64,000 nucleotides of DNA from Gemmatimonadaceae bacterium (lineage in GTDB: Bacteria > Gemmatimonadota > Gemmatimonadetes > Gemmatimonadales > Gemmatimonadaceae): assembly GCA_036504815.1 (NCBI GenBank), contig DASXUN010000012.1:248001-312000 (forward strand), written 5' to 3'. This document shows, one piece after another, positions 21,548 to 26,047 of the stretch. Each line of letters starts with the position of its first letter. Position 1 is the stretch's first letter. Below the pieces are notes generated by a model, which was not told where the DNA came from, searched no databases, and worked only from the letters and a program-made list of their open reading frames with translations. A program made the position numbers and the translations under genes.

Positions 21548-21704
21548 TGGCCGCGCCAGGTCCCGGCGGGCGCTTCGGTGCCCGGCCCAGGGAAACGATG
21601 GTGGGCTTTGGCCGCGCGCGACGCCGGCGGCGCCAGATGAGAAACGCCACGGCACCGGCGGCGAGGAACGCCACCGCCACATCCTGCCAGCCGAGGCCAC
21701 CCAT
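21540..21704 (-). CDS. 54-residue single-span membrane protein coupled to feoB
   Basis: MGGLGWQDVA, one hydrophobic helix (VAFLAAGAVAFLIW, about 11-24), then five arginines and a basic, proline-rich tail, predicting an N-out, C-in topology. The ATG overlaps the feoB stop as ATGA and the tail overlaps the next gene. Size, topology and position match the small FeoB-associated membrane proteins found after feoB in many bacteria, but the cysteines typical of that family are missing. Possible FeoB accessory subunit; no family confidently recognised. Confidence 0.7.
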   Translation of the reverse strand: MGGLGWQDVAVAFLAAGAVAFLIWRRRRRARPKPTIVSLGRAPKRPPGPGAANG

Positions 21705-23884
21705 CAACCGTACCCCAGCAATCGCCCGCCCTGGTAGACGGCGAAGGAGGCCAGCCAGGCCATGGTGTTCATCATCAGCAGCATGAAGATGGGCCAGCGC
21801 CACGAGTTGGTTTCGCGCCGCACCACGGCCAGCGTCGACATGCACTGACAGGCGAGCACGTAGAACACCATCAGGCTGAGGCCGGTCAGCGGCGTGTAGG
21901 CGCGCAGGCCGGTGCGCGAGTCGACGGCCTCGCGCAGGCTCTTGCGCAGGGGCTGCACCGCACGCTCGCCGCTCTCGAGATTGAAGACCGTCGCCATCGT
22001 CGACACCATCACTTCACGGGCCGCCAGCGACGTGATCAGCCCGATGCCGATGCGCCAATCGAAGCCGAGCGGCGCGATGGCCGGCTCGATGAGCTTGCCG
22101 GCCCGCCCCGCGAACGAGTGTTCCAGCGTGGCCGACGCGATGTGCCGGTCGAGCATCGTGACGCGTGCCGTGTCCGCCACCGCCACGGCCGCCACGCGCT
22201 CGCGCTCGAATGCGCGCGCCGCTTCGCTCCCGCGCGGATAACTCGCCAGGAACCACAGCACCACGGTGATGGCGAGGATCACGGTTCCCGCATTGCGCGT
22301 GAAGAGGATGCTGCGCTCCCGCACGGTCACGAAGACCGACCGCCACGCGGGCAGGCGGTACGGCGGGAGCTCCATCACGTAGAGCGGCATGCCGCCGGAC
22401 AGGACGGTGCGCTTCAGCGCCCACGCCACGAGGATCGCCGCCATGATGCCGATGAAGTACATGGAGAAGAGCGTGATCCCCGGAAGGGTCACGAACCCCA
22501 CCCATCGGTTCGGCACGAACGCGCCGATCAGGAGGGCGTAGACGGGAAGCCGGGCGCTGCACGACATGAACGGCGCGATCATGATCGTCGCGAACCGGTC
22601 GCGGCGATTGTCGATGCTCCGCGTCGCCATGATCCCCGGAATCGCGCAGGCGAAGGACGACAGGAGCGGAATGAAGGAGCGCCCCGACAGGCCGACGCGC
22701 GACATCACGCGGTCCATGATGAAGGCGGCGCGGGCCATGTACCCGCTGTCCTCGAGAATCGAGAGGAAGAGGAACAGGATCGCGATCTGCGGCACGAAGG
22801 TCAGCGTAGTGCCCACGCCGGCAATGACGCCGTTCACCAGCAGCGAACGCAGCGGCCCTTCCGCCATCACCGATCCCACGGCGTTCCCGACGCCCGTCAT
22901 CCCCCAGTCGATCAGGTTCATCAGGGGCTGCGCCCAGGCGAAGACCGACTGGAAGACGGCGCCCATCAGCACCACGAAGATGATCGGGCCGAAGATGCGA
23001 TGCGTGAGCACGCGGTCGATGGCTTCGCGCCGGGCATCCTTGCGCGTGCCGGCCGGCACGTTCACCGCCTCCGCGACAAGCGCCGTGATGGCCTGATAAC
23101 GGCCCGCGACGTCGCCGGCACGCCAGGTGGGCTGGAATTCGTCGAGGCGCCGCGCGAGGAGATGCGCGTCCGCGAGGGTCTCCGGCGGAACGTGCCGCTC
23201 GAGCGCGTCGTCATCCCCGTTGTCGAGAAGCATCGCAATGGCGAGATCGCGCTGCGCCCGCTCGGGCACGCTTTCGCGGCGCGGCAGCCGCTGCTCCAGC
23301 CGTTCGATGACGCGCTCCAGGTGCGCCGGCCACTCGCGGAAGTGCCGCAGCGAGGGTTCGACATCGCGTGTCATCAGTTCGCGCAGCCGGTCGAGTCCCT
23401 CGTCCTTGGCGGCGGAGATCCCGATCACCGGCACGCCGAGCTGCCGTTCGAGCGCGTCCGTCTCGATGCGCAGTCCCTGCGCGCGCGCCGCGTCCATCAT
23501 GTTCAGCGCCAGGATGAGCGGGCGGCCGAGTTCGATCACCTGCAACGCGAGATACAGGTGGCGATCCAGGTTGGTGGCGTCGACGACGAAGACGATCAGA
23601 TCGGGAGGCGGCGTGTCGGGCTGAAGCCCGAGCAGGACGTCACGCACCACCATCTCATCCGGCGACGCCGGCTGCAGGCTGTAGCTCCCCGGAAGGTCGA
23701 TGATCTCCGCGCGCTGACCGTGCGGCAGGTCGCAGAACCCGGTCTTCTTCTCGACCGTCACGCCCGGATAGTTGGCGACCTTTTGTCGCAGCCCCGTCAG
23801 CGCGTTGAAGAGCGTGGACTTCCCGGCGTTCGGGTTGCCCAGAATGGCAATGCGGCGCGGGCGCGCCTCAGAGGTCCGCGACAT
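21704..23884 (-). CDS. feoB: ferrous iron transporter FeoB
   Basis: Inner-membrane Fe(II) importer with an N-terminal GTPase. 726 residues. G1 GNPNAGKST at 16-24, G3 DLPGSYSL, G4 NMMD, then a helical GDI-like spacer (to about 265) and a polytopic core with two Gate motifs rich in Cys/Gly/Pro (SSFACAIPGIMATR and the C-terminal VLACQCMSTLAVVRRE). The first 17 bases overlap feoA, so the two are co-translated. Expected to be expressed under low iron from the operator at 24716. Confidence 0.97.
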   Translation of the reverse strand: MSRTSEARPRRIAILGNPNAGKSTLFNALTGLRQKVANYPGVTVEKKTGFCDLPHGQRAEIIDLPGSYSLQPASPDEMVVRDVLLGLQPDTPPPDLIVFVVDATNLDRHLYLALQVIELGRPLILALNMMDAARAQGLRIETDALERQLGVPVIGISAAKDEGLDRLRELMTRDVEPSLRHFREWPAHLERVIERLEQRLPRRESVPERAQRDLAIAMLLDNGDDDALERHVPPETLADAHLLARRLDEFQPTWRAGDVAGRYQAITALVAEAVNVPAGTRKDARREAIDRVLTHRIFGPIIFVVLMGAVFQSVFAWAQPLMNLIDWGMTGVGNAVGSVMAEGPLRSLLVNGVIAGVGTTLTFVPQIAILFLFLSILEDSGYMARAAFIMDRVMSRVGLSGRSFIPLLSSFACAIPGIMATRSIDNRRDRFATIMIAPFMSCSARLPVYALLIGAFVPNRWVGFVTLPGITLFSMYFIGIMAAILVAWALKRTVLSGGMPLYVMELPPYRLPAWRSVFVTVRERSILFTRNAGTVILAITVVLWFLASYPRGSEAARAFERERVAAVAVADTARVTMLDRHIASATLEHSFAGRAGKLIEPAIAPLGFDWRIGIGLITSLAAREVMVSTMATVFNLESGERAVQPLRKSLREAVDSRTGLRAYTPLTGLSLMVFYVLACQCMSTLAVVRRETNSWRWPIFMLLMMNTMAWLASFAVYQGGRLLGYG

Positions 23885-24134
23885 CTATCCCGCGCGCCTC
23901 AGTCCGCCGTAGCGACAAATGCACCCCCCGCACCGCAATCTCCATCGGATCGCCCAAGGGCGCCCGCCGGATCATCTCGACCTCCGTGCCAGGCGTCAGG
24001 CCCAGCTCCATCAGGCGCCGCGCAATCGGCGGCGGGCAGTCCACGCTGGCGATGACGCCGCGCTCCCCGATGGCGAGCCGATCGAGGGAACGCGTGGTGG
24101 CGTGCTGGCGCGGCAGGTGGGAACGCGGATTCAT
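23868..24134 (-). CDS. feoA: FeoA-type SH3-like protein
   Basis: 88 residues with an SH3-like fold of the FeoA family, a cytosolic partner needed for FeoB transport in studied bacteria. Family pattern: LDRLAIGERGVI, IARRLMELGLTPGTEVEMIRRAPLGDP, EIAVRGVHLSLRR. The ATG overlaps the regulator's stop as ATGA and its end overlaps feoB, so regulator, feoA and feoB form one message. Confidence 0.95.
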   Translation of the reverse strand: MNPRSHLPRQHATTRSLDRLAIGERGVIASVDCPPPIARRLMELGLTPGTEVEMIRRAPLGDPMEIAVRGVHLSLRRTEARGIDVADL

Positions 24135-24682
24135 GCGCGCTGCAACGCTCGGCCGATGGGCGTGATCAGCGAGTCACGCAGGCAGGTGGCGCCGCACAGG
24201 TCGCAGGCGCCCGGCTCATGCTCCTTGCAGGAGCGCGGGCTGGTGCGGTACGCATCGCGAAAGAGCGCCGCGGCCGGATGCTTGGAGCGCATGAAGGTGG
24301 TCAACCGCAGCAACTCCACGGAGACTTCCGGACTCACGAGGTGCTCGATCATGCAGGCGTCCTCGGTGGCCACATCCTCGGGGACGCCGAGGATCTCCGT
24401 CAGGAACATCGAGAGCACGCGCCGGCTCGACTCGGTGCGCGACGCGAAGCCGGACCCCTCGTTGGTGAGCTCGACGCAGCCATAGCGCTCGTGGCGAACG
24501 AAGCCTCGCTTCTCGAGCGAACGCAGCATCGAGGTGACGCCGCTCTTCGAGACGCCCAGATGCTCCGCGATGTCGCCGACGCGCGCGTGCCCCTTCTCGG
24601 CCTTGAGCAGCGCGACCGTCTGGAGATAGTGCGCCATCGAGTGCGACACTTCCTTTTCGCTGTATCGCTTCCAGATTTCCAT
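24131..24682 (-). CDS. DtxR/MntR-family iron-responsive repressor with C-terminal Cys cluster
   Basis: 183 residues. N-terminal winged helix (about 16-78; VGDIAEHLGVSKSGVTSMLR is the recognition region) and a DtxR-type metal/dimer domain. EDACMIEHLV puts C110, E113 and H114 where DtxR has C102, E105, H106; cysteine there is the iron-sensor pattern, MntR having an acid. The SH3 domain of classical DtxR is missing. The tail instead has C152, C160, C163 and C167, reminiscent of FeoC-like cysteine clusters. First gene of the feo operon, so probably autoregulated through the adjacent palindrome. Confidence 0.92.
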   Translation of the reverse strand: MEIWKRYSEKEVSHSMAHYLQTVALLKAEKGHARVGDIAEHLGVSKSGVTSMLRSLEKRGFVRHERYGCVELTNEGSGFASRTESSRRVLSMFLTEILGVPEDVATEDACMIEHLVSPEVSVELLRLTTFMRSKHPAAALFRDAYRTSPRSCKEHEPGACDLCGATCLRDSLITPIGRALQRA

Positions 24683-24715
24683 GAGCTGCGCGTCCTTGAT
24701 GCGGTGGACTCAAGA

Positions 24716-24735
24716 CTGTTAAGGTAGCTTAACAG
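24716..24735. promoter_or_regulatory. palindromic operator, likely iron-regulator site
   Basis: Perfect 8-base inverted repeat, CTGTTAAG and CTTAACAG, around GTAG. It lies 34 bases before the regulator's ATG and 48 bases before the divergent receiver gene. Length, TTAA-rich half-sites and location match DtxR/IdeR/MntR operators, so it probably controls the feo operon and may also affect the receiver gene. It is AT-rich in an otherwise GC-rich region. Confidence 0.8.
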
Positions 24736-24782
24736 GACGCTTCGACTGACGCAATCGGACATCCCGCGCGATCTTCCTCGCC

Positions 24783-25163
24783 ATGAAGATCTTCGTCGTG
24801 GACGACGACCCCTTCGCGCAACGCCTTCTGGTTCGACAGCTCGAAACCATCGGCCATTCCGATGTCGTGGTGTTCTCCGCTGCCAAGGAGCCCTTGGCAA
24901 TACTCGGCTCCGACGTTGGCGCAGCCGAGGTCATCGTACTCGACCTGGCCATGCCGGACATGGATGGCATGGAGTTTATCCAGCAGCTGGCGCGCCTGAA
25001 GTTTTCGGGCACGCTGATTTTCGTCAGTGGCATGGACGAGCGCATCCTGCAGCTCGCGCCGATGCTCGCCACCGGCCTGCATCTCAAGGTCGCCGGCGCG
25101 TTGAAGAAGCCCGGTTCACCCGAACAGTTGCGCGCGTTGCTCAGCCCGGTCGCGCCGCAGTAG
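24783..25163 (+). CDS. single-domain response regulator
   Basis: 126 residues, receiver domain only. FVVDDDP gives the acidic pocket, D54 in VLDLAMPDMDG is the phosphorylation site, the switch serine is in FVSGMD and the conserved lysine in ALKKP. No output domain, so it would act by protein contact or as a relay partner. It is divergent from the iron regulator and shares its short promoter region; no kinase is adjacent. The stand-alone Hpt protein at 16253-16609 is a conceivable partner, by inference only. Confidence 0.9.
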   Translation: MKIFVVDDDPFAQRLLVRQLETIGHSDVVVFSAAKEPLAILGSDVGAAEVIVLDLAMPDMDGMEFIQQLARLKFSGTLIFVSGMDERILQLAPMLATGLHLKVAGALKKPGSPEQLRALLSPVAPQ

Positions 25164-25234: not shown

Positions 25235-26047
25235 ATGCAGAATCGTCGAATCCTCTGGGTGGTCGCCGTCGTCATCACCCTGGTCTCGGCCGTCTACCAG
25301 CGCATGACGGGTCCCACTTATCCCGCGCGCGGCACGGTTCAGTTGGGCGGCACAGCACTCAAGCTGAAACTCACCCGCACGCACGGTGGGCCCGGCGATC
25401 AGCCCGTCGTCATCGCGGCCGCAGACACGGCCATCGCCGGTGAGATCGCGTGGCGCCGGTACCCCACGCAGGAAGCCTGGCAACGGACTCCCCTGGCACG
25501 CGAGGGCGGCGAACTCCGGGCGGCCCTCCCCCACCAGCCGGTGGCCGGCAAGCTGGAGTATCAGGTGCACCTGACGCGCGGCAGCGAGTCGGCGGTCTTT
25601 CCCGAGCGTCCGGCCATCACGCGCTTCCGGGATGCCGTTCCTGCCTACGTCCTGATTCCGCACGTGTCGGCGATGTTCTTCTTCATGCTCTTCGCCACGG
25701 CGGCAGCGCTCGGCGCCCTCGTCCGCGCGCCGCAGGCCCGACGCGACGCGTACATCGGCATGGCGCTTCTGGCGGTCGGCGGCTTCGTGCTTGGCCCGCT
25801 GATGCAGAAGATCGCCTTTGGCGCGTGGTGGACGGGGATTCCCTTCGGCTGGGACCTCACGGACAACAAGACCCTGTTCGCCGCCATCGCCTGGGCATTC
25901 GTGTGGTGGCGCATGCGCGGGCAGCGCGACGCGCGCGCGGCAATCATCGTGGCGGCAGTGGTCACGCTCGGTGTCTTTGCGATTCCGCACAGCACGTGGG
26001 GCTCGGAGGTGGACTGGAGCGCGACGGCGGCCCCTGCGCTTCAGTAG
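25235..26047 (+). CDS. conserved membrane protein of unknown function
   Basis: 270 residues, family not recognised. Membrane helix at about 6-22, an extracytoplasmic beta-rich region (about 30-135, with RGTVQLGG, VVIAAADTAIAGEIAWRRY, KLEYQVHL), then four hydrophobic helices (about 142-165, 174-192, 208-222, 228-245). The WTGIPFGWDLTDNKTLFAAI segment between helices is strikingly conserved-looking. It sits between a receiver gene and a MASE1 kinase on the same strand, without overlap. Confidence 0.75.
   Translation: MQNRRILWVVAVVITLVSAVYQRMTGPTYPARGTVQLGGTALKLKLTRTHGGPGDQPVVIAAADTAIAGEIAWRRYPTQEAWQRTPLAREGGELRAALPHQPVAGKLEYQVHLTRGSESAVFPERPAITRFRDAVPAYVLIPHVSAMFFFMLFATAAALGALVRAPQARRDAYIGMALLAVGGFVLGPLMQKIAFGAWWTGIPFGWDLTDNKTLFAAIAWAFVWWRMRGQRDARAAIIVAAVVTLGVFAIPHSTWGSEVDWSATAAPALQ

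Follow-up and report, generated by a model that had tools for sequence, protein, structure and literature searches.

The dtxR-feoA-feoB locus

The window analysed here, a 64,000-nucleotide stretch of a Gemmatimonadaceae genome that comparison with its relatives likewise assigns to Gemmatimonadota, carries a leftward gene cluster for a DtxR-family regulator and the Feo proteins FeoA and FeoB, separated from a divergent receiver gene by an intergenic region with a perfect inverted repeat. The features of the locus are:

21704..23884, minus strand: feoB, start overlapping the end of feoA
23868..24134, minus strand: feoA, start overlapping the end of dtxR
24131-24682, minus strand: DtxR-family regulator of 183 aa, with a winged helix, a dimerisation domain and a C-terminal four-cysteine tail (PF01325, PF02742)
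24709..24713, minus strand: candidate third half-site TTGAG, +19 bp from the first TTAAG (TTGAG, TTCAG or TTAAG at +19 in most orthologues)
24716..24735, no strand: palindrome, proposed operator of dtxR-feoAB (uniqueness, composition, conservation upstream of dtxR)
24719-24732, within the palindrome: 14-bp core TTAAG-N4-CTTAA
24726..24734, minus strand: predicted extended -10 element TGT-TAAGCT (TGTTAAGCT) of a leftward promoter, within one palindrome arm (T/G at -2/-1 and TAAGnT conserved)
24749..24754, minus strand: predicted -35 element TTGCGT, 17 bp from TAAGCT
24783-25163, plus strand: single-domain receiver gene, the divergent neighbour (Pfam Response_reg)

The ends and starts of dtxR, feoA and feoB overlap, and the three genes thus form one operon. 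An earlier note on this DNA had described a perfect 8-4-8 palindrome flanked by a DtxR-family regulator with feoA and feoB on one side and a receiver gene on the other; the repeat, CTGTTAAG-GTAG-CTTAACAG (full sequence CTGTTAAGGTAGCTTAACAG), is present exactly as described, and our annotation agrees with these neighbours. Both domains of the regulator pass the Pfam cut-off (Fe_dep_repress, PF01325, 46 bits; Fe_dep_repr_C, PF02742, 44 bits), and its AlphaFold2 model (pLDDT 87.8; confidence good at residues 11-150, lower in the tail) gives structural matches to MntR and DtxR with Z of 14-17. This domain pair and fold place the protein in the DtxR/MntR family; Pfam detected no SH3 or FeoA-like domain in it.

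Composition and conservation of the palindrome

The window holds eight perfect 8-N4-8 palindromes against about three expected from its composition, and 55 inverted repeats with spacers of 0-10, and we accordingly dropped the rarity of a bare palindrome as an argument. Since such repeats are common in this GC-rich window, the case for the palindrome rests instead on its composition, position and conservation. Its GC content is 40% against 69% for the window, and it is the only AT-rich member of the set, the other seven palindromes having 75-90%. Allowing up to three mismatches, CTGTTAAGGTAGCTTAACAG is matched once in the window (expected 0.03) and nowhere else in the 3.5-Mb genome. The earlier note had proposed a genome-wide scan for enrichment of the motif at iron genes; the outcome is one site only, and it precedes an iron operon. 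A wider regulon in the same genome was also considered and rejected, as a scan with TTARGNTANCYTAA allowing one mismatch returned the palindrome site alone.

Eleven genomes of the genus were searched, ten of which encode the window-type dtxR (76-100% identical to the window's regulator). In each of the ten the site precedes dtxR, with the core starting 46-101 bp before the start codon, and the gene order dtxR-feoA-feoB is preserved; since two of them (G003 and G009) hardly differ, the ten count as about nine independent genomes. The upstream alignment of the genus contains a single conserved block, TGTTAAGCTACCTTAACAGTCTTGAG (minus strand), together with a TTG further upstream. The eleventh congener, G007, lacks a window-type dtxR orthologue, FeoB and a comparable site; a match in it, TTAAGATTTCTTAA, has no TA centre and was taken as chance. 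Beyond the genus, the motif reached p <0.03 singly upstream of 9 of 12 orthologues (combined p about 1e-12). Most Eisenbacteria-labelled orthologues are preceded by the site, and nearly all Eisenbacteria-labelled loci share the gene order; similar upstream repeats were seen in Hydrogenedentota relatives at two loci only (L089, L091).

Reversed-pattern controls gave 0-3 one-mismatch matches per genome, so lone matches of this kind mean little. One-mismatch copies of the motif in two close relatives (G005 and G008) precede a CbiX-like gene that is absent from the other genus genomes, and in the loci concerned (L052:1501-1514 and L053) this chelatase gene encodes a likely signal peptide. It is a possible second target, confined to these two relatives.

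A predicted promoter overlapping the palindrome

Eighteen orthologue upstream regions were anchored on TTAAG and compared ungapped. A TTG recurs at the same offset, -22, in 14 of them, T occupies +6 in 15, TG stands at -2/-1 in most, and TTGAG or TTCAG occurs at +19 to +23 in most. The resulting pattern, TTG-N20-TAAGnT, is on this evidence a predicted -35/-10 pair with 17-bp spacing and an extended -10. Both elements of the present species match the consensus poorly, at three of six positions, the support coming from conservation, and a strict sigma-70 consensus scan found no promoter at the site. Two distant orthologues have a near-consensus TTGACA-N18-TATTAA at a nearly equivalent place in surroundings that are otherwise unalignable. 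The TTGAG at +19 possibly provides a contact for a second repressor dimer. Positions +28 to +32 hint at a fourth half-site, with C at +28 in 15 of the 18 regions and A at +32 in 14 of them, but this was rejected as too degenerate outside the genus.

Metal ligands of the regulator

The regulator aligns without gaps, at an offset of 8, to Mycobacterium tuberculosis IdeR (a sequence identical to PDB 1b1b). The primary-site ligands Met10, Cys102, Glu105 and His106 of IdeR correspond to His18, Cys110, Glu113 and His114, the last three being invariant in 39 sequences and His18 conserved in at least 90%; the primary site is preserved, with histidine substituting for Met10. The ancillary-site residues His79, Glu83 and His98 are replaced by Arg87, Ser91 and Thr106, and the regulator has neither the ancillary site nor the SH3-like domain that mark the IdeR/DtxR iron-sensor subgroup. 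Its closest structural counterpart is MntR of Bacillus subtilis, which furnishes the best matches (Z 16-17) and shares the short layout without an SH3 domain. The two differ in that a cysteine here takes the place of an MntR glutamate and a histidine that of Asp8, in the linkage to feoAB instead of manganese transport, and in the four-cysteine tail.

Cysteine at the position of IdeR Cys102 separates iron sensors from MntR (PMC10317159). A second DtxR homologue of the genome (L102:3359-5705), which is fused to a FeoA-like domain and lies close to a gene for an Nramp transporter, carries the Mn-type residues Asp and Glu where IdeR has Met10 and Cys102. This difference at the metal site suggests a division of labour in which the regulator of the window is likely to sense Fe(II) and the second homologue Mn(II), with some uncertainty about specificity since His replaces Met10 and the ancillary site is lost.

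The site compared with IdeR/DtxR operators

The single-dimer site of IdeR and DtxR has the 14-bp consensus TTAGGNNNNCCTAA (PMC8464063). The core described here shares with such operators the 5-bp half-sites, the N4 spacer, the 14-bp length and the location at an iron-uptake promoter, and eight of its ten half-site letters are those of TTAGG-N4-CCTAA, the difference being C2 to T in each CCTAA. It is an inverted repeat of this DtxR-family operator type. The suggestion that this is a metalloregulator site was well founded, in that it behaves as a dtxR-linked site facing feo; the accompanying claim that it departs from the IdeR/DtxR consensus was right in part, the departure being limited to position 2 of each half-site. 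Other differences from the IdeR/DtxR systems lie in the wider arrangement. Their 19-bp element TTAGGTTAGSCTAACCTAA is a double-dimer site with four overlapping half-sites; here there are no half-sites offset by 5 bp, a third half-site occurs at +19, and there is a single site per genome in place of a regulon.

Gel shifts with IdeR showed that a C2-to-T2 half-site variant was bound with an apparent KD of about 105 nM, against 45 nM, a small penalty that IdeR tolerates (PMC8464063). Thr40 of IdeR contacts half-site position 2 and must move to fit thymine; its counterpart in the present regulator is Gly48, which is invariant in the genus, and two further base-contact residues differ as well (Pro39 to Ser47, Gln43 to Ser51). 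The locus is a natural instance of the half-site that was made artificially for IdeR, with a smaller residue at the contact position.

Proposed regulation of the operon

Conservation of the site, its co-occurrence with the operon, the overlap with a promoter-like pair, and the family and metal ligands of the adjacent regulator are all observed. On these grounds we consider it very probable that the palindrome is the operator of dtxR-feoA-feoB, at which the Fe(II)-loaded local repressor would block the leftward promoter; binding by this regulator, Fe(II) as its effector and repression are what we infer from them. A dimer of the adjacent DtxR-family protein, its primary metal site occupied by ferrous iron, would bind TTAAG-N4-CTTAA and, because the site overlaps the -10 element, would exclude RNA polymerase, reducing production of the repressor and the importer alike. 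As iron falls, the repressor would leave, and both dtxR and the Fe(II) importer would be made; the TTGAG half-site just downstream probably aids a second dimer. The arrangement is most likely of an ordinary kind, an operator through which the regulator controls itself along with Fe(II) uptake, and its sequence departs modestly from the usual form. A literature search for Gemmatimonad DtxR with feoB returned nothing; the present proposal names, for Gemmatimonadota and for Eisenbacteria-labelled genomes, a specific and testable operator and promoter that would govern Fe(II) uptake.

The most interesting point of the locus is the cysteine tail, which may be a second sensor. Its motif, C-x(7,8)-C-x2-C-x(3,5)-C at residues 152-167, does not vary within the genus apart from one six-residue insertion, and it recurs in most Eisenbacteria-labelled, many Hydrogenedentota and one Planctomycetia relative; several others are missing it. 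The tail may hold an Fe-S cluster or form a zinc knuckle. FeoC-type small regulators, encoded with feoAB in feoABC operons, combine a winged helix with a cysteine cluster. The regulator of the window shares with them the winged helix, the linkage to feoAB and a cysteine cluster, and it gives a weak Pfam match to FeoC over the winged-helix portion only; it differs in that a full DtxR dimerisation and metal domain separates the winged helix from the cysteines, and in the spacing of the latter. It could accordingly be read as a DtxR protein carrying a FeoC-like tail and acting as a two-input iron sensor. Fe(II) would then occupy the one remaining primary site, the tail would bind an Fe-S cluster (or zinc), and the half-sites at 0, +9 and +19 would form a tandem operator; we think this tentative reading somewhat unlikely. 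Our literature search found nothing specific on cysteine-tailed DtxR regulators.

The receiver gene and other readings of the site

A different reading, advanced in the earlier note, is that one operator serves both directions, linking iron to phosphorelay signalling through control of dtxR-feoAB leftward and of the receiver rightward. In this species 47 bp separate the palindrome end from the receiver start codon, a distance at which a bound repressor could hinder a promoter, and the receiver adjoins the site in four of the ten genus genomes. However, five others with enough upstream sequence keep the site with no receiver there (G002 is truncated at the contig end), and G003, G005, G009 and G010 have, assembly gaps aside, no close receiver homologue genome-wide. 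Where the receiver is present, its distance from the core varies (50, 96, 120 and 129 bp), contrary to the fixed spacing and joint conservation that a bidirectional operator would show across the ten genomes; a separate conserved element (GCTTGTTGAA...) also stands just before it, clear of the palindrome, and the predicted promoter within the site faces the opposite way. Joint control as a general feature does not find support in these comparisons, and we consider the reading improbable, though in this species, where the spacing is shortest, the repressor may incidentally affect the receiver gene as well.

Another metalloregulator, such as a Fur protein or the Nramp-associated second DtxR with its FeoA-like domain, might instead bind the site. 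Against this, no genome from 34 other genera of the family has the exact motif, though other DtxR homologues are present there, and the motif follows the local gene; nor is there a second site in the genome, and hence none by the Nramp locus, making this reading quite improbable. An RNA-level element or terminator is highly improbable: 8-bp inverted repeats can in general pair into a hairpin, but no terminator-like site was detected, the predicted transcript start lies within the repeat and would keep the transcript from carrying the two arms together, and the TTAA cores are the most conserved part, with one arm taking one-sided changes (CTCAA, CTGAA) and no compensation.

On the preferred reading, a repressor-bound operator facing dtxR-feoAB, the receiver gene is in general judged to lie outside the regulatory unit. 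The single-domain receiver shares 56% identity with the receiver portion of a longer protein encoded elsewhere in the genome (416-aa frame; G000:C5:25368-25742). Among NCBIfam models the PvrR EAL response regulator matches it best, and it may represent a split-off copy. To its right lie a gene for a 270-aa protein, a MASE1 histidine kinase and a LuxR-type response regulator. The 270-aa protein (25235-26047) has no Pfam match and is 82% conserved beside the locus in several genus genomes.
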